From a virus: a stretch of 21,346 nucleotides of DNA. Below the pieces are notes generated by a model. It did no database searches. It saw nothing but the letters and a program-made list of their open reading frames with translations, and was not told the origin of the DNA. Shown piece by piece: positions 1 through 13,074 of this stretch. Position 1 is the stretch's first letter. Every line of letters begins with the position of its first letter. The stretch lies in the IMG/VR virus record IMGVR_UViG_3300042504_002032, positions 1-21,346 of that record; one strand, 5' to 3'. A program made the translations under genes and the position numbers.

Positions 1-1845
1 CTCTTTGCCTCCCTTCATTCGTTTAATTGTATTTTGAAACAAGGCAATACTGAATTCTACTAACGGCGGAAACTGCTCAATCAGCCCTCGCATTTGGTCA
101 AAAAATTGTCCTGCTGTAGCAATTAACGCTTGTCCTTCTTGCTGTTGTTGCTGTTGGTCTATAGCTACCATCGAATCTGAAGCTATTTGAATACGGTAGC
201 TACGTTTCGTGTCGTCGCGTAGTATGTCAATAATTTGACGCTTCATATCCTCGATAAGCATTAGAGGATCTGGCTGTGGAGCTATAGGAGGTAGCTCAAC
301 TGGTAGCATACCTTCTTGTCCTGGTTCTGGCATTGGCGCGGGAGGTGGCGTTGGTATAAAGATGGTAGGCTCAATAAGAGCTGTCGCATCTCCAATTTCT
401 AAAATCCTAGCTTCATCAAATTGTTCGCAAATGATAGCGCCAAGTTTAGCGATAGCGTCCGACATAAACTTGGTAAACATGTTCTGTCGTACAATTAACC
501 CCATTGACGACCACTGATTTTCTAACCTGTTGGCCGTAGCAGATTTGTATTGCTCTGAGGTGCCACGTAATAGATCAGAAACTTTCAGCGTTTCGTAAAG
601 CTGCTGTAAAGCATTTTGTCGAATTTCTTGAAGAACATTAAGTGCATTTGCAAATGGCTCAAATGGAGCAAACTCCATAGACCCTTGCAAGCCGCCTCTG
701 CCGCGATTTGCAGGCCAATTATCAACAGGGACACCCTTTAGGTCATCTTCAAAGATTTGTTCAATGGTGCGGCCCATAGCGCTGTCATAAGCAAAGTTAG
801 TGCGTATTGCTTGAGTGACAGCATGGATACGGGTTGTAAGGCGTTCTACTTCTAGAATTTGGTCTTTAACATGAGCGTAATCAGATACTGGGATTACGCT
901 ATCTGGATCAATGGATTGTCTGATAACTGAACAGGGATAGAACCCTTCAAATTTGATGGGTGGCTCCATCTCTTCAATAATGGTTTTATCACCACCTTTT
1001 TGGATCCAATAAACTTTGTTTGTTGCTTGGCACCAAATTTCAAATACTTCTGCTTTCCCTTCAAACTTATCTTCTTTTCGAGCTATGTCTTTTTTAATGA
1101 CCTCTGGAAAACTGTCATAGTTTAATTCTTCTGCAACAACGTCGCCAAAAAGAGATTTTGCTTGGTCTCTGTCTAAGAACGCACGTCTAGCCTGCCATTC
1201 TATTTCTTGCTCATTCCGAGCATCGGAGCAGAAGTAATCACTGTAAGAAATGACTTCTAAAACAGCTTTTTCATCTGTTTTTTGTTCTACTTCTACAGAT
1301 TTAACTAAAATGCCCCCTGTTGTTTCTGTAAAGCCTTCTATATCGTCTTCATAAGGCTGACCATTGCCATCCAAATAAGCTCCGCTTGGGTCTTTAATGA
1401 TAGCAATCTCTTGAAAAACTGTTTCAAACTTAGCTATGTATCTAGCCCATAAAACGGCTTGTCCAGTAAGCAAAAATTGCAGAGCTGCTTGATAACCGAT
1501 CTTATCAAAATCAAAGTTGCAATCCATGGCATACTGAGTGTTGCGTTCTATAATAACGCTGCCTAGTTCGTAGGGTATGCCACCTGCTCTTTTACGTAAA
1601 TTTACTTCAGCTTTAGGTGTTGAGCTGTAATAAGCAGGTAGCAGGGTATTAATGCAGTACCACCAAACATTTAATCGTCGCTGTGCGTCTCGTAATGTGT
1701 CTACTTGTCTGTGTGCGTTATAAACCCGAATTGACTCTTCAGCGTCTTGAATAAACTTTTTACGTCTTGTTTCTGCATCAGAAATCTGAGCTTTCCACCA
1801 GCGACCTGAATACTTTTTAATTAGTGAAACAGGTTGTTTTTTCAT
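1..1845 (-). CDS. Portal protein, partial (C-terminus beyond left edge)
   Basis: The frame is open without a stop from an ATG at 1845 to the window edge (615 codons), so the C-terminus is missing or just outside. Portal proteins form the dodecameric ring at the capsid vertex through which DNA is packaged and ejected. Support is its place directly after the large terminase, the length, and a portal-like stretch with VSDLLRGTSEQYKSATANR around residues 415-435 followed by a helical region. A Pro-rich linker (FIPTPPPAPMPEPG) and a Gln run (residues ~558-563) lie near the C-terminus. Its ATG overlaps the terminase stop as ATGA, which suggests translational coupling. The family call rests on synteny and general look rather than a diagnostic catalytic motif. 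Confidence 0.8.
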   Translation of the reverse strand, partial: MKKQPVSLIKKYSGRWWKAQISDAETRRKKFIQDAEESIRVYNAHRQVDTLRDAQRRLNVWWYCINTLLPAYYSSTPKAEVNLRKRAGGIPYELGSVIIERNTQYAMDCNFDFDKIGYQAALQFLLTGQAVLWARYIAKFETVFQEIAIIKDPSGAYLDGNGQPYEDDIEGFTETTGGILVKSVEVEQKTDEKAVLEVISYSDYFCSDARNEQEIEWQARRAFLDRDQAKSLFGDVVAEELNYDSFPEVIKKDIARKEDKFEGKAEVFEIWCQATNKVYWIQKGGDKTIIEEMEPPIKFEGFYPCSVIRQSIDPDSVIPVSDYAHVKDQILEVERLTTRIHAVTQAIRTNFAYDSAMGRTIEQIFEDDLKGVPVDNWPANRGRGGLQGSMEFAPFEPFANALNVLQEIRQNALQQLYETLKVSDLLRGTSEQYKSATANRLENQWSSMGLIVRQNMFTKFMSDAIAKLGAIICEQFDEARILEIGDATALIEPTIFIPTPPPAPMPEPGQEGMLPVELPPIAPQPDPLMLIEDMKRQIIDILRDDTKRSYRIQIASDSMVAIDQQQQQQEGQALIATAGQFFDQMRGLIEQFPPLVEFSIALFQNTIKRMKGGKE

Positions 1846-4142
1846 ATTTTACTCTTAGAGTTTCTAGCTCGTACTTTTGCTATGTAACTTTGTAATTTAA
1901 CCAAGCCTTTGTTGAATACTTCTGCTGGTTGCTCCCATTTAGAATCAATTAAACGTGCTTTACAAAGATAGCGCAAAGCATCACAATTATGTGACACGAC
2001 CCCATTGCCCAAAACAAAAGTACTTGTTTTTGGAACATTTAAGCAATACACGTCTTGCGGGGTTTCGGAATAAGATTTGGATTTAACCGTCTTCGCCTGG
2101 CTGACATTTTGCAATTCTGATGACAATACTTGGCTTTCCATGCCATGTGTTTTTTTGTTTGAAACTCCGCCTGGCAAAACTCGCAAGTTTTGGTAATTAG
2201 CGGCATGTTGGCTGCTATTTGCCTGGCATGTTCTGAATGCCATTCCCGCCCCTGTAGCGACTTGTGCCAAAATTTTGACATCGGCACAGCGTTCTTCAGC
2301 AAATTGGCTTTGGCCCACTCCCTCCGCTCTGGCGTCATATGATTGGAAAGATGAGTTTTGGAATCTAACAATTCTAAGTTTTTTATCTGATTGTTGGCTC
2401 TGTTGCCATCCTTGTGATGAATGTGAAACCCTTTTGGGATTGCACCATTGAAGTATTCCCAAACCTTTCTGTGCAAGCGTCTTGAGCCACGCACGCCTTT
2501 TTGCTGGGCTGAAAAGTAATTGCCGCAACGATAATAACGGGTTCCGTCGAATTGTTGGCACGTGTGCGAAATAACCTTTACTTTCATACGTAACGTAGTC
2601 TATCCAATCCTCAGAGGTAATGGCAATAGCTGTTTTATATGTGCCGTTTGCTAATCGAAACAGATGGTCTGGAGTACAAACAATTTCAGAATTGTCGTTA
2701 AAAACAAGTTTTATGACGTTGGCCTGTTTGCGGGTTAGTGCGCCGCACGCCTCATGGTAATAACCGTCGTGAGATAAAACTGCGACGGAATAGTTGCCGC
2801 AAAGGTCTTTAATTGGCAAAGGCCCAGAATCGGTCATTACAAGCGTATCACCAGCCAAACAAGCATGGTCATTGCCGCTTGTGTCCAAATCCTCTGGTCT
2901 TCGTTTGTCTATTGACATAGATGGTAAAGTTTCTAGCAAGTACGGGCAAGTAGCAAATATGTAAAGCAACGGAGGTTTAGCTACTAGCCTTTGTCTAATC
3001 TGGGACCACCCTGAAAGCCGGTCATTGTCAGCAGCCCTAAAACTCATCTGCTTATACTTGCTAAATACAGCTGTAAACTGATCGTTTATGCTTGGTCCAC
3101 CCTCATGATTAAAGATGCTAGGGTCGGCAACAGCTACTGCATTTTCTCCCACGGAAACTGATGCAATTCTGTTAGCCTGCTCGACGTTATCAACTCCTTT
3201 TCCCCACATTTCGCGATAGATGATAATAGCTCCTTTTGGATATGGTACTTCGTTACCTCTGTCATCACGTCCAGAACTAACAGCACCCCAGACAGCAGCA
3301 AAAGGGCTACGATAACCCCAGTCATAGCCCAAATAACGAGGCCAGTGTTGAGGGACGTTAAAAGCAGCAATGATATGTTTAGAGCTAAACTCAGGAAAGT
3401 AACTACCCTCATGAATCTCAAAGTCTCCTTCTAGCCAAGCCCGCACCAGCTCTGGACTACCAACCATGTGCAAGCGGTTAATGTACTCAGGGTCACGCGC
3501 TAACAAGATTTGATTATCATGCACCCTACTTGGTATGTAGATGTAATCAAAACTGGCGCCGTTAGGCAGGTCTTTTGTTAATACTTTCATCCCTTTGGGA
3601 GCTGGTTTGATAAACAATTCCTTTAGCCAGCTATGACCTATACCACCAGGGTTGAATGTAAGGATGATTTGACCGCCTCCCTTGCCTCGTAATGCTCCAA
3701 ATAGCTTCCAAATACAGGACGGGTCAGCATAGTTACCAGCTTCTTCTATAGCGCAATCTGAGAGGTTCTGGCCTTGGTACTTCTCGGCGTCAGCGTCATT
3801 AGCTAAAGGTCTAAAACGTAAGCGACCACCCGATACGAAGGTAAACTGCTTTTTCTGGTCCTGCCAATGCGCTTTAAGCGGCAAATATATCTGTTTAGCA
3901 CGCTCAATAAGGTCATCAGCTTGGGGTAATTCTTTACGAAAAAAGATAGCATTGAAATGAACCCCTAATTGCTCCTGCTTGATTGCAAACTTGCCTAGTA
4001 CGCCGTCAGTCTTGCCACCACCACGGGCGCCCCCATAACCAACCAATGTAATCGGACAAGCAACTAGAGCCTCTTGAGGGCCAGATTGAGGCGCCCAGAC
4101 AATATGCTCATCAAGGCGCTGTTCAGCTACCCAATCACTCAC
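1842..4142 (-). CDS. terL: Large terminase (TerL) interrupted by an intein
   Basis: This is the ATPase/nuclease that pumps DNA into the prohead and cuts the concatemer. Numbering from GTG 4142 (766 residues before splicing, 474 after): Walker A GGARGGGKT at 37-45, Walker B with acidic pair CAIEEAG at 133-134, coupling motif LTFNPGG at 161-167. The RNase-H-like nuclease has GYDWGY (Asp274), VADPS (Asp340) and HA/CDALRY (Asp721 before splicing). I chose GTG 4142 because it overlaps the methyltransferase stop as GTGA, like other junctions of this operon, and has AGAGG upstream; a TTG at 4187 would add 15 residues. Residues 428-719 form an intein placed one residue before the third nuclease Asp, so activity should depend on splicing. 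The terminase identity is firm; the start is less certain. Confidence 0.95.
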   Translation of the reverse strand: MSDWVAEQRLDEHIVWAPQSGPQEALVACPITLVGYGGARGGGKTDGVLGKFAIKQEQLGVHFNAIFFRKELPQADDLIERAKQIYLPLKAHWQDQKKQFTFVSGGRLRFRPLANDADAEKYQGQNLSDCAIEEAGNYADPSCIWKLFGALRGKGGGQIILTFNPGGIGHSWLKELFIKPAPKGMKVLTKDLPNGASFDYIYIPSRVHDNQILLARDPEYINRLHMVGSPELVRAWLEGDFEIHEGSYFPEFSSKHIIAAFNVPQHWPRYLGYDWGYRSPFAAVWGAVSSGRDDRGNEVPYPKGAIIIYREMWGKGVDNVEQANRIASVSVGENAVAVADPSIFNHEGGPSINDQFTAVFSKYKQMSFRAADNDRLSGWSQIRQRLVAKPPLLYIFATCPYLLETLPSMSIDKRRPEDLDTSGNDHACLAGDTLVMTDSGPLPIKDLCGNYSVAVLSHDGYYHEACGALTRKQANVIKLVFNDNSEIVCTPDHLFRLANGTYKTAIAITSEDWIDYVTYESKGYFAHVPTIRRNPLLSLRQLLFSPAKRRAWLKTLAQKGLGILQWCNPKRVSHSSQGWQQSQQSDKKLRIVRFQNSSFQSYDARAEGVGQSQFAEERCADVKILAQVATGAGMAFRTCQANSSQHAANYQNLRVLPGGVSNKKTHGMESQVLSSELQNVSQAKTVKSKSYSETPQDVYCLNVPKTSTFVLGNGVVSHNCDALRYLCKARLIDSKWEQPAEVFNKGLVKLQSYIAKVRARNSKSKI
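1986..2861 (-). mobile_element. Intein in TerL nuclease motif III (292 residues)
   Basis: The splicing element starts at Cys1 (codon 2861-2859, CLAGDTLV) and ends in SHN (Asn codon 1988-1986), followed by extein Cys+1. Block A is CLAGDTLVMTDSG, block B carries the TPDH motif at intein residues 63-66, block F is VYCLNVPKTSTFVLGNG and block G is VVSHN with the penultimate His and terminal Asn. All residues expected for standard Cys1/Asn/Cys+1 splicing are present. Removal joins GNDHA to CDALRY and restores the nuclease motif. Between blocks B and F the intein frame shows no recognisable endonuclease domain; residues about 92-274 overlap an HNH gene read in another frame. Confidence 0.93.
2039..2587 (-). 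CDS. HNH homing endonuclease encoded out of frame inside the intein
   Basis: This 182-residue protein has the organisation of free-standing phage HNH endonucleases: RLHRKVWEYFNG (38-48), the core HIHHKDGNRANN (55-66) with His57, His58 and Asn62, NLELLDSKTHLSNH (70-83), a GREWHSEHAR segment (113-122) and a C-terminal zinc-ribbon-like module with Cys135/Cys138 and Cys155/Cys159 before a basic tail. It probably cuts an intein-less terL allele to drive homing. It starts at ATG 2587, only five codons after a TAG in its own frame, so fusion by frameshifting has a very short possible window and internal initiation is more likely; no strong ribosome-binding site is visible. Its TAA stop lies inside a Leu codon of intein block F. 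It is +1 relative to the terminase/intein frame. Confidence 0.9.
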   Translation of the reverse strand: MKVKVISHTCQQFDGTRYYRCGNYFSAQQKGVRGSRRLHRKVWEYFNGAIPKGFHIHHKDGNRANNQIKNLELLDSKTHLSNHMTPERREWAKANLLKNAVPMSKFWHKSLQGREWHSEHARQIAANMPLITKTCEFCQAEFQTKKHMAWKAKYCHQNCKMSARRRRLNPNLIPKPRKTCIA

Positions 4143-4780
4143 AGCGGCAATACCTCTTGCCGTAAGCGGTTGGCAGCTAATTCGCAATACTTTTCTTCAA
4201 TTTCAATGCCAATAACTTTCCATTGGAGGTCTTTTGCTGCTCGTAAACTACTTCCACTTCCTGCAAAAGGGTCAAGCATTGTTCCAATTTTATGACATCT
4301 TAAAAATGGATACATTACATTTACAGGTTTTTCTGTTGGATGACGAAGACTGGAACCGTTGATTCGAGGGACTTTTATAATGTCTGTTGGTCGATAAACA
4401 AAAGAATGGTTAATTCCAGGGTAAAAAGCGCACCCTTCCCACTGTCTACCGAACTCATGTTGTAAATCCCCCATGGAATGGCTGCCTTTGTCCCAAACTA
4501 TAAAACTTTTTGGTTTTGGGAGTTCGTATAAATTATCCCATCGACACCATACAAACATTGCACCCGTGTATTTTAACTCTGTAAATATCCAATGCGGAAA
4601 TTTATCATCGTTTGCTATTCCCCCTAATTGTTCGTGCTTTGCCCGCCAATTACTGTGATAATCCATTCCATAAGGCGGATCGGTAAGCACTAAATCGACA
4701 GGCTCTAAATGGGGTAGAATATTCTTACAATCCCCATGGTATAAAGTAACGTAATCATCTTGGTAGTAAGGCTTAATCAC
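4139..4780 (-). CDS. DNA methyltransferase, beta-class amino-MTase (N6-adenine or N4-cytosine)
   Basis: A 213-residue SAM-dependent DNA methyltransferase. The catalytic motif TDPPYG lies at residues 33-38 and the SAM-binding motif DPFAGSGSS at 170-178, after HPTEKP (147-152). The order catalytic motif first, SAM motif last is typical of beta-class enzymes that methylate an exocyclic amino group. It is a solitary enzyme: no restriction endonuclease gene is adjacent, so protection against host restriction or marking of DNA for packaging or replication are the likely roles. It starts at GTG 4780, overlapping the upstream stop as GTGA, and ends overlapping the proposed terL start, so it is co-translated inside the terminase operon. 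Target sequence cannot be read from the window. Confidence 0.93.
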   Translation of the reverse strand: MIKPYYQDDYVTLYHGDCKNILPHLEPVDLVLTDPPYGMDYHSNWRAKHEQLGGIANDDKFPHWIFTELKYTGAMFVWCRWDNLYELPKPKSFIVWDKGSHSMGDLQHEFGRQWEGCAFYPGINHSFVYRPTDIIKVPRINGSSLRHPTEKPVNVMYPFLRCHKIGTMLDPFAGSGSSLRAAKDLQWKVIGIEIEEKYCELAANRLRQEVLPL

Positions 4781-6833: not shown

Positions 6834-7349
6834 CTATTCAGGTATTTCATCCAAACTAATCCCCGTCTTTTCCCTTAACCAATCATATTTACCATCCTTA
6901 GTAACAAACGGTTCCTTCTTAATAGCTACTGGTATTTTTTTAATGGTAGTTTCTAATGGTAATACTTTTAATGGTAGCGGGTCATTTTGCCCCCGATCAT
7001 TGGGGTCATTTTGCCCCCTATATGGGTTCAATTTGCCCCCATTCGAGGTCAGATTGACCCCGTTCATTGGGGGCGTTTTGACCCCATTCGTGTTGAGGTA
7101 CCGACCCCTTCCCTTGCTCGTTTGTCGCAGTAGTCCGGCTGATAGTAATCGGCGGATCATTCGCTTGGTAGCTGATTCAGAGAATCGCAATTCCGCCGCT
7201 ATATGCGGAATGGAGGCAAAGCACGGTCGCTTGTTTCTCTCAAACCTTTGAACGTAACTAAGAATTAGTGCTTCGTGGTGGGAGAAACCGGCATCAACTA
7301 GCGAAAAGTCTACTATACCTATGCGGTGTTTTTTGGTATCTTTACCCAT
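6834..7349 (-). CDS. Winged-helix replication initiator (lambda O-like arrangement)
   Basis: A 171-residue protein on the opposite strand to its neighbours. Residues 25-85 form a winged-helix domain (HHEALILSYVQRFERN, ASIPHIAAELRFSESATKR, IRRLLSAGLLRQTSKGRGRY) like those of phage and plasmid initiators. Residues 89-124 are a low-complexity linker with repeated NGVNL, NGGKLNP and GQNDP units, translated from DNA iterons. The C-terminal part is Lys-rich and short (ending GISLDEIPE), possibly a helicase- or primase-loader contact. AAGGAA precedes ATG 7349 by six bases. Iterons inside the initiator gene beside AT-rich DNA match the lambda O/ori layout, so the protein most likely binds its own gene as origin. 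A transcription-regulator role is the main alternative. Confidence 0.75.
   Translation of the reverse strand: MGKDTKKHRIGIVDFSLVDAGFSHHEALILSYVQRFERNKRPCFASIPHIAAELRFSESATKRMIRRLLSAGLLRQTSKGRGRYLNTNGVKTPPMNGVNLTSNGGKLNPYRGQNDPNDRGQNDPLPLKVLPLETTIKKIPVAIKKEPFVTKDGKYDWLREKTGISLDEIPE
6939..7085. other. Probable replication origin inside the initiator gene
   Basis: Five related 16-bp units lie at 6979-6994, 7003-7018, 7025-7040, 7046-7061 and 7070-7085, with start-to-start spacing of 24, 22, 21 and 24 bp. Units 1 and 2 are identical (GGGTCATTTTGCCCCC). Unit 4 shows the dyad GGTCA-GAT-TGACC, and a degraded sixth copy may lie at 7093-7108. Beside them, 6890-6977 is AT-rich with three 11-bp repeats, TTTAATGGTAG at 6939 and 6967 and TCTAATGGTAA at 6952, which could be the unwinding element. 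Origin function is inferred from this layout. Confidence 0.7.
6979..7085. repeat. Five iterons, consensus about GGGTCATTTTGCCCCC
   Basis: The core is a G-run, a TCA/CGT step, a T-rich centre and a C-run, so each unit is an imperfect palindrome. Copies vary mainly at the centre (ATTTTG, AATTTG, GATTG, GTTTTG). The array encodes residues 89-124 of the initiator, giving it a repetitive linker. The spacing of roughly two helical turns puts copies on nearly the same DNA face, as in iteron origins. Confidence 0.8.
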
Positions 7350-11581: not shown

Positions 11582-12565
11582 ATGCTATACGGAATTGATT
11601 ATTTAGGATTACCCAAATATACAGACCTTGCAATTAGAGAGCATCCAGAAGGTTGGGCAGCTGGTTGCTTTGCTAACACGTTTGGTAATGCTCTACCCGC
11701 AGTAGATCGACTACTTGGTACTGGCAGGTGTCCACATTTTAGAGTGCATTTACTATGGAGTGATGCTCATCGTTTTGGCGACGCTGATATTCCAACAATA
11801 AGGCAATTAGCACGCAAATACGAACTGCTTAAACGGAAGTATAATTTTGTCGTAATGGAGATTTCGCCATTTTGTGAGCATAACGTAAGCAATCCAGACA
11901 AATACCTAGATATTGTAAAACAGGAAGCACCTAGCTGTATCATAGTTAATACACCATGGCAGGGTGCAGTATCGCGACGCTATAAAAACGAAACGCACGG
12001 CACACATAGGCCTTTAGCTGGTAGCTATAATTACAGTTGGGATGGCACGTCTTGTGTTGACGGAGATGTAGAAGCAAGCAAAGCGCTACATGCTAGGTCA
12101 GACGTATACTTCTGGTGGCATCCTGCAATGAATGGCAGGTTAAACACTAACGATAAAACCCCCCGATCACAGCGAAAGGCTTGGCCAACCTCAGAGTTGA
12201 TCGACTCAATGATTTATCTTCACAATCCAGCAGGTAGAGTAAAACTACCTCGTAACTACCTGTGGAAATCTCATGCCGATAGACATAGTACACCACCAGA
12301 ACCACGAGCATATAAGCCAGTGCTTATTATGCCGCCTAAAGCACGTCGTGTTGAACTAGTAGCAGATAATGGCCAAGTTGTAGCAATAGCAGGCGCAGCA
12401 GCACCGTTTAACGATGGTAGGTTTAGGTACTACTGGCCTGATTTTGGCTACAAACTTGCTGAAAAAGCAGTACGTATACACAACAAGCCAACCTGCAAGT
12501 TAGTTGTTGATGGGAAGGAAATGGGCATTGTAAACCCTGCTTTTAGAGGGGGATCGTTTCGATGA
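11582..12565 (+). CDS. Putative TIM-barrel (glycoside-hydrolase-like) protein
   Basis: A 327-residue protein beginning immediately after the protease stop (TAA-ATG). Hydrophobic strands end in polar residues in the way of beta/alpha barrels: HFRVHLLWSDAHRF (about 52-65), NFVVMEISPFCEH (about 88-100, with a candidate catalytic Glu), SCIIVNTPWQG and SDVYFWWHPAMNGR. The last 80 residues look like a beta-sandwich (ARRVELVADNGQVVAIAG onward), perhaps sugar-binding. No signal peptide is seen. I do not recognise the family; glycoside hydrolase is an inference from strand and acid pattern. Its pairing with a secreted protease suggests action on surface polymers, but it could be virion-borne. Confidence 0.5.
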   Translation: MLYGIDYLGLPKYTDLAIREHPEGWAAGCFANTFGNALPAVDRLLGTGRCPHFRVHLLWSDAHRFGDADIPTIRQLARKYELLKRKYNFVVMEISPFCEHNVSNPDKYLDIVKQEAPSCIIVNTPWQGAVSRRYKNETHGTHRPLAGSYNYSWDGTSCVDGDVEASKALHARSDVYFWWHPAMNGRLNTNDKTPRSQRKAWPTSELIDSMIYLHNPAGRVKLPRNYLWKSHADRHSTPPEPRAYKPVLIMPPKARRVELVADNGQVVAIAGAAAPFNDGRFRYYWPDFGYKLAEKAVRIHNKPTCKLVVDGKEMGIVNPAFRGGSFR

Positions 12566-13074
12566 GTAAAACACCTGAAGAGATACCAGGCAAGCGCTTC
12601 ACCATTGAAGACATCCGCAGCTGGAACCCATGCTACGACCCCGCAAGGCATTTGCCTGAAGGTTGGAGCGGGACTGCTGCCGATATATTGCGGCATGAAA
12701 CTATTCCCGCCAAAGACAGGCTATGGGTTGTGTGCAGAGAAAATTTGATAGACGCAAAGACACTACGGCTTTTTGCTGTTTGGTGCGCTAGGCAGGTTGA
12801 GCATCTAATGATAGACGAGCGGAGTAAAAAAGCCCTCGAAGTAGCTGAACGATTTGCAAACGGCGAGGCAACCTCTGAAGAGTTGGCTGCTGCTTGGGCT
12901 GCTGCTGGGGCTGCTGCTGGGGATGCTGCTTGGGCTGCTACTGGGGCTGCTGCTTGGGCTGCTGCTGGGGATGCTGCTTGGGCTGCTACTGGGGCTGCTG
13001 CTGGGGCTGCTACTGGGGATGCTGCTTGGGCTGCTCAAGTTGCTCGACTATTAAAAATGGTAGAGGGGGAATGA
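12562..13074 (+). CDS. Hypothetical protein with Ala/Gly/Trp tetrapeptide repeats
   Basis: A 170-residue protein whose ATG overlaps the preceding stop (ATGA at 12562-12565). Residues 1-108 are a globular segment (RFTIEDIRSWNPCYDPARHL; AKDRLWVVCRENLIDAKTLR) that is probably cell-associated. Residues 109-158 consist of 12.5 tetrapeptide units such as AAAW, AAAG, DAAW and AATG. A closing helix ends VARLLKMVEGE. Similar Ala/Trp repeats occur in uncharacterised phage proteins; structure and role are unknown to me. The downstream ATG overlaps its TGA. The frame of the downstream gene is also open through the repeat. Confidence 0.75.
   Translation: MSKTPEEIPGKRFTIEDIRSWNPCYDPARHLPEGWSGTAADILRHETIPAKDRLWVVCRENLIDAKTLRLFAVWCARQVEHLMIDERSKKALEVAERFANGEATSEELAAAWAAAGAAAGDAAWAATGAAAWAAAGDAAWAATGAAAGAATGDAAWAAQVARLLKMVEGE
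12886..13035 (+). repeat. 12-bp tandem repeat array, about 12.5 units
   Basis: The units are variants of GCTGCTGCTTGG: position 4 is TGG or GGG, GAT may replace the first GCT, and ACT the third. Unit length is a multiple of three, so unit gain or loss keeps the reading frame. Other frames of the array are also free of stops, which explains long artefactual open frames on both strands here. Confidence 0.92.

Follow-up and report, generated by a model that had tools for sequence, protein, structure and literature searches.

Genes for HNH endonucleases that lie out of frame within other phage genes have been met before. In the available text of PMC11855218, the ShiLan domain and Pacc40 are out-of-frame HNH genes in phage methylases, where the authors detect neither an intein nor an intron; their translation is left unexplained, leaderless initiation is suggested, and the authors propose that the in-frame reading stays in the methylase. 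Another out-of-frame HNH in a methylase is listed in the accessible part of PMC12613952. In a 2015 brucellaphage paper, an HNH in TerL, the large terminase subunit, is called 'intein-encoded' and 'out of frame', in what is, in the text available, a passing remark without a test of splicing blocks, dual coding or expression (PMC4422536). The dCTP deaminase intein of phage CL131 is described as HintN-HNH_3, with the endonuclease in frame (PMC6293099, accessible sections). Here we describe an intein in the terL gene of the viral record IMGVR_UViG_3300042504_002032 (positions 1 to 21,346, the whole of the analysed stretch, called the window below), within which an HNH gene is read in a different frame from the intein itself. 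A further kind of arrangement is the fractured gene, in which, as Dassa et al. reportedly described in 2009, a separate homing endonuclease gene lies between the halves of a split intein.

The locus in the window shares with ShiLan and Pacc40 an out-of-frame HNH gene, a host frame that is open across it and a disjunct distribution, but whereas the available text reports no splicing domains or motifs for ShiLan, here a splicing domain is present, as a complete Hint intein that surrounds the HNH gene, and candidate start signals precede that gene (PMC11855218). Like the CL131 intein, it combines a Hint splicing domain with an HNH_3 nuclease; in CL131, as far as the accessible text goes, the nuclease belongs to the intein protein itself (PMC6293099), whereas here it is offset by +1 and predicted to be a separate product. 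In fractured genes the precursor is cut into two genes, whereas here the intein frame runs on through the endonuclease gene within one 781-residue open reading frame (ORF), with no stop in 36 relatives; fractured and continuous states both occur within this HNH family. Given ShiLan and the brucellaphage remark, out-of-frame nesting of an HNH gene is not new as such. A full-text literature search, with most subscription papers outside its coverage, turned up no account of dual coding in a spliced intein.

The window carries an out-of-frame HNH gene inside a complete TerL intein, with both frames retained (Table 1). A preliminary description of this DNA had placed a separate 182-residue HNH gene with its own ATG (2587) and stop (2039) in the +1 frame of a complete splicing element, with a TAG at 2602-2600 upstream and the HNH stop inside block F, and all of these coordinates and assignments check. 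The intein signature is complete (Cys1, T63-P-D-H66 in block B, H-Asn292 and Cys+1), C1, H66 and N292 are invariant among 38 aligned inteins, and Pfam Intein_splicing matches the terL ORF with an E-value of 2.2e-9. The HNH ORF, whose offset from TerL is 1600 mod 3 = 1, matches Pfam HNH_3 (E 1.2e-16) as well as close PHROG HNH relatives, and contains the HNH motif and two CxxC/CxxxC pairs. In 93 representatives of the nested layout, surveyed below, H57 is kept in 98%, H58 and N70 in 100%, H79 in 99% and the zinc-binding C135/C138/C155/C159 in 98%. At the HNH stop the DNA TGC TTA AAT reads C-L-N in the intein frame, and the first part of the C-terminal splicing half is double-coded with the 3' end of the HNH gene. 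We consider it very probable that this is a mobile TerL intein in which one stretch of DNA gives two products, the HNH protein being expressed separately.

Table 1. Features of the terL locus, in window coordinates
Feature	Position	Strand	Remarks or basis
terL precursor ORF (terminase large subunit + intein)	1842..4187	-	781 aa; Pfam Terminase_3 + Intein_splicing; PHROG terminase large subunit
N-extein, TerL residues 1-442, C-terminal end ..GNDHA	2862..4187	-	
Intein, TerL residues 443-734, 292 residues, Cys1 to Asn292, then Cys+1	1986..2861	-	
N-terminal half of splicing domain, intein residues 1-92, blocks A + B	2586..2861	-	pLDDT
Intein residues 93-253, predicted unstructured; DNA common to HNH	2103..2585	-	pLDDT, omega
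C-terminal half of splicing domain, residues 254-292, blocks F + G	1986..2102	-	pLDDT, omega
HNH_3 endonuclease ORF, 182 aa, ATG 2587 to stop 2039	2039..2587	-	+1 frame relative to terL
HNH-frame TAG stop upstream of HNH ATG	2600..2602	-	nearby TGA, TAG or TAA in relatives
Candidate -10 hexamer TAGACT (GATAnnnT element), 9 nt before HNH ATG	2597..2602	-	
Candidate -35 hexamer TTGCCA, 18-nt spacer, weak	2621..2626	-	promoter scan
C-extein CDALRY.. + TerL stop	1842..1985	-	

The start codon listed for terL, a TTG, is uncertain. An N6_N4 DNA methylase ORF (window 4139-4780) overlaps it by 49 nucleotides (nt); the true start may be further downstream. A group I or II intron instead of an intein was ruled out, no Rfam family matching at gathering score between 1700 and 4300.

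Are the two frames open beyond what chance would allow? From IMG/VR scans we took the best 80 of 304 relatives found with the TerL query, and 53 loci, including some contigs counted twice, found with the HNH query. Because the nested class is defined by its open frame, its lack of stops holds by construction, and the informative results are the shuffle expectations and those of the query with the HNH protein alone, for which another frame is open across the whole HNH match in 53 of 53 loci (+1 in 52, +2 in one). The preliminary description had the intein frame open across the whole HNH gene and named, as what would count against it, relatives with one frame riddled with stops; in all 36 nonredundant close relatives both frames are open. 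Synonymous shuffling of the HNH codons gives means of about 6 to 12 intein-frame stops in these relatives, with 0 of 1000 shuffles leaving the frame open for any of them, and the third frame contains 7-14 real stops in each. After dereplication at 70% identity, openness has a shuffle P below 0.05 in 47 of 70 nested representatives (17 of 17 at +1, 30 of 53 at +2). In the other 23, all at +2, it is individually non-significant, which counts against the reading favoured here.

The substitution pattern implies that the HNH is the constrained protein and that selection on the intein frame mostly amounts to keeping it open. Within the overlap, HNH codon position 3 is the most variable (0.469 against 0.253 and 0.204), and in the N-extein it is TerL position 3 (0.166, 0.096, 0.484). 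The ratio of nonsynonymous to synonymous change (omega), estimated from isolated changes on a parsimony reconstruction with no fitted codon model, is about 0.19-0.20 for HNH codons 2-150 and 0.12-0.14 for codons 151-182, and for the intein frame over the same codons 1.3-1.4 and 0.45-0.49. These estimates leave out 585 and 52 clustered changes, as well as branches above 0.15; rows excluded beforehand were the distant L132, L133 and L135, the partial L050, L051, L058, L112 and L136, the mini-intein L059, L052 and L054 (other length) and the duplicate L048. HNH-synonymous changes would be expected to produce 46.6 intein stops over codons 2-150 and 6.8 over codons 151-182, but only 0.5 and 0 are reconstructed (2.0 and 0 when HNH-changing changes are included). 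As judged by these patterns, amino-acid selection acts mainly on the HNH, the intein frame being held open, and amino-acid constraint in the intein frame is confined to about the last 32 HNH codons, so that both proteins are constrained only toward block F. The comparison of synonymous change proposed in the preliminary description thus found both constraints, that on the intein only near its end; its statement that about 180 codons are used twice stands for translation but not for amino-acid constraint over that length.

Structure prediction draws a similar line. For the intein frame (38 sequences), AlphaFold is confident for residues 1-92 and 254-292, with a predicted local distance difference test score (pLDDT) of about 30 between them (whole-model mean pLDDT 60.3; predicted template-modelling score, pTM, 0.47); in 10-residue blocks the pLDDT means are 90-96 for residues 1-90 and 27-47 from 91 to 250. 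By its predicted structure the splicing element is a Hint fold: Foldseek matches the model to inteins, best to the NpuDnaB intein 4o1r, with a template-modelling score of 0.77 by target. The HNH frame (42 sequences) has a mean pLDDT of 91.5 and a pTM of 0.56, with weaker last residues, so the HNH frame is predicted to fold while the same DNA read as intein is predicted to be mostly unfolded. The only match of the HNH profile among solved structures is the HNH homing endonuclease 1u3e (E 9e-5), with which it shares the HNH core. We take 1u3e to be I-HmuI, presumably an intron-encoded enzyme, whereas the present one lies inside an intein.

To place the locus among its relatives, an HNH alignment (A1, 11 sequences) and one more query were run against IMG/VR and GTDB genome contigs, and the loci were sorted by profiles of both splicing halves and dereplicated at 95%; all counts are among the matches listed, the HNH queries were themselves mostly nested, and the class without a recognised intein may hide inteins that the profiles missed. 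There are at least 170 dereplicated loci, 93 of them nested out of frame (37 at +1 and 56 at +2), 17 fractured, nine with one half seen, one in frame (L270) and 50 with no recognised intein. Out-of-frame nesting is thus the commonest state next to an intein in this HNH lineage, and while the preliminary description was right that the +1 offset departs from the in-frame norm of inteins, here it is no oddity. Its suggestion of a search for the same nested architecture was followed from HNH family queries, and the architecture recurs in many phages at both offsets. Among 46 aligned representatives, from the 64 nested ones that fall outside the main clade of the window, 44 match Pfam Intein_splicing and 40 one TerL PHROG. 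Three are phage records, all at +2, namely Tetrasphaera phage TJE1, Acinetobacter phage Highwayman and Rhodobacteraceae phage LS06-2018-MD07. In the phage records HQ225832, OZ038341 and OP947163 only a terminase is annotated over the match, so that HNH genes inside terL are likely missed in annotation. On an HNH tree of 122 sequences, with bootstrap not settled, +1 forms nearly one clade (three changes), while +2 needs 10 changes, fractured 8 and no recognised intein 11, implying that the offset is stable within clades and that nested and fractured states interchange.

Several individual loci may be mentioned here. In the fractured loci of Lactobacillus phage CL2 (L138) and Vibrio phage 1.245.O (L005), TerL ends in the N-terminal half of the intein, which is followed by the HNH ORF and then by the C-terminal half in a separate stretch; Brochothrix phage BL3 (L137) also has an intein N-terminal half at the end of its TerL ORF. 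In L052 (1958-5380; also L053) TerL has two inteins. One, which follows ..GGSRGGGK close to the N-terminus, contains an in-frame LAGLIDADG domain, and the other, farther along, is the one with the nested HNH. A spring-metagenome phage, L141 (MW202478, 2501-2728 and around), has a TerL mini-intein without room for a nuclease.

How would such a locus work? In the mechanism that we favour, terL would be translated in frame 1 through the whole insert as one precursor, from which the Hint halves, joined by some 160 residues of unstructured filler, would splice out in cis to leave a TerL of about 489 residues; since a frame-1 stop would abolish TerL, the intein frame stays open. The +1 HNH gene, in frame 2, would be expressed alone from the ATG that comes right after the N-terminal splicing half. 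In the clade of the window, expression would probably start from a promoter hidden among intein codons, giving a near-leaderless mRNA, and in many +2 and most fractured relatives the HNH would be started from a Shine-Dalgarno sequence. The free HNH protein would then cut intein-less terL, and repair would copy the insert in, which is homing.

The candidate start signals differ between groups. A Shine-Dalgarno sequence (ΔG -4.4 or lower) is present in 12 of 17 fractured and 27 of 55 +2 loci but in only 1 of 37 +1 loci, and the search found none for the HNH of the window (L008 has the same sequence). Of 511 five-codon windows upstream of the HNH in the window clade, the one with most synonymous conservation is at residues 528-532, beside the HNH start. 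Codon 528 ends in G in all members, though the residue varies between L, V, A and W; Ile529 has the codon ATA in 40 of 40, whereas elsewhere ATA accounts for 486 of 1454 Ile codons; and codon 531 begins with T in all, coding C, S or Y. The shared letters form GATAnnnT, in most members TGATAnnnT, which we take to resemble an extended -10 box. In 34 of 36 +1 loci it ends 9 nt ahead of the ATG, a placement found for 1.1% of control ATGs, and this spacing predicts a transcript start about 2-4 nt before the AUG, and the promoter scan lists TTGCCA-18-TAGACT at this site. The element is probably a near-leaderless promoter. In +2 and fractured loci without a Shine-Dalgarno sequence, the distance from the end of TAnnnT to the ATG is exactly 6 nt in 8 of 30 (control 1.5%), compared with only 1 of 40 loci that have one. 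This spacing, which is that of strictly leaderless genes, was spotted by eye before counting, and since the eight loci represent about five lineages on the HNH tree its P of 1.7e-8 as counted becomes 1e-4 if reduced to those; it is a partly independent line of support for what may be leaderless starts. The window clade has a second cluster of synonymous conservation in the N-extein, at TerL residues 294-302 (windows starting 294-301).

Several observations weigh against this account of the HNH start. The mean Shine-Dalgarno ΔG in the +1 clade, -0.15, is weaker than the control mean of -2.35, so that translation of the HNH there rests on a promoter read from sequence. The promoter scan as a whole is not above chance (5 sites, 4.1 expected), the window's own element does not have the TG of an extended -10, and the predicted leader of about 2-4 nt would not be strictly zero. 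Mini-intein L061 retains TAnnnT despite having lost the HNH, while L059 does not. One +2 clade has an 11-locus TAnnnT peak at 15 nt, indicating that shared descent alone can make such peaks. As a separate observation, the +2 loci L166, L168, L180, L182, L183, L186, L187, L203 and related ones form a clade without a Shine-Dalgarno sequence; the sole ATG in their HNH frame is found within the N-terminal splicing half, in a GGATG(G) context, and in many of them TAnnnT ends 15 nt upstream.

Would another reading of the locus serve as well? Programmed frameshifting, by which a +1 slip after the N-terminal splicing half would produce an IntN-HNH fusion with the HNH ATG unused, draws some support from the position of the HNH start directly behind that half and from the lack of Shine-Dalgarno sequences in the +1 clade. 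An HNH-frame stop, however, lies within 60 nt before the first start codon in 89 of the 93 nested representatives (the exceptions being L003, L198, L199 and L219), leaving few codons for a slip; the start is ATG in 36 of 37 +1 representatives (TTG in L155), a Shine-Dalgarno sequence or TAnnnT precedes it at many loci, and the aligned upstream sequences contain no conserved slippery run by eye, no formal scan having been made. We therefore regard frameshifting as improbable, and internal initiation, which the preliminary description preferred, remains favoured. Somewhat less probable still is that cis-splicing has been lost and the through-frame is vestigial, terL being in effect a fractured gene with a split intein: 17 loci in the survey are fractured, their two splicing halves flanking the HNH and their intein frame closed or shifted, but the window and its +1 relatives have a continuous precursor ORF and no intein-frame stops where about 6-12 are expected.

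That the HNH is a decaying passenger, open by accident in a stretch where only the intein frame matters, might be suggested by the loss of most of it from two mini-inteins, but the idea is contradicted by the variability of HNH codon position 3, by an omega near 0.2 and by the retention of the main catalytic and zinc residues in 95-100% of the nested representatives, and we consider it very unlikely. An assembly or sequencing artefact, in which paired indels displaced an in-frame HNH domain, deserves a hearing because the window clade is known from metagenomic contigs only, and a check for compensating indels had been proposed. The comparative data exclude it almost completely. Identical TerL protein (100%) occurs in three other metagenomes (L008, L009 and L010, the last from residue 10), relatives with as little as 57% HNH identity, and from many metagenomes, retain the offset, no stop separates the two splicing halves, which share a frame, and the same design at the other offset is present in the phage records HQ225832, OZ038341 and OP947163. 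A mobile intein with a separately expressed HNH protein is accordingly the reading that we retain.

Presence and absence of the intein at one site among close relatives is observed, as homing would predict, the empty sites and the mini-inteins showing gain and loss, and the DNA cutting itself we infer. An N-extein tree of 63 sequences (38 nested, 23 empty and 2 mini; L058 and L078 left out as contig-end truncations) needs 13 changes of the nested label, at least 9 of them forced by well-supported branches. Nested L011 and empty L055, from different metagenomes, have no mismatches in 503 nt upstream and are identical over all 127 nt available downstream. Of five intein-plus/empty pairs tried for co-conversion gradients around the insertion site, L049/L073, L016/L076 and L034/L072 gave no junction by the pattern used, and the other pairs gave no clear gradient. 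The preliminary description saw in the locus a free-standing HNH gene that had invaded a mini-intein, to which the two mini-inteins found in this clade lend no support: L059 and L061 have lost most of the HNH but still contain the 3' end of the gene with its stop, in the HNH frame, making them deletion products, and for these two the ancestral state is rejected. Repeated HNH invasion of mini-inteins would fit the HNH tree and the two offsets, and edge indels that change the frame would also serve as an origin.

On balance we lean slightly towards regarding dual-frame inteins as distinct and widespread mobile elements and a regular state of HNH-bearing TerL inteins, with an HNH start of their own (a Shine-Dalgarno sequence, or a -10 box so placed that the mRNA starts at the AUG or beside it), that may give rise to mini-inteins by deletion and to fractured genes by one closing mutation. 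If so, an intein would have a second way to carry an endonuclease, making two proteins from one DNA stretch, and splicing and cutting would sit on separate, separately regulable polypeptides; with this layout the insert can probably spread while its own splicing is left undisturbed. It would also be a natural connection, open to test, between ordinary inteins and split-intein fractured genes, and would provide many young overlapping genes whose polarity of constraint is known, an old nuclease fold against free filler. The start signals would offer a testable answer to how translation of hidden HNH genes comes about, a question that the ShiLan authors leave open in the available text (PMC11855218).

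Two tandem repeats lie elsewhere in the window. One of 12-bp/48-bp units (3.1 copies of 48) at 12885-13035 codes for an Ala-rich tract in the ORF 12562-13074, and a 24-bp tandem repeat of 4.7 copies at 6979-7085 lies within the ORF 7349..6834(-).

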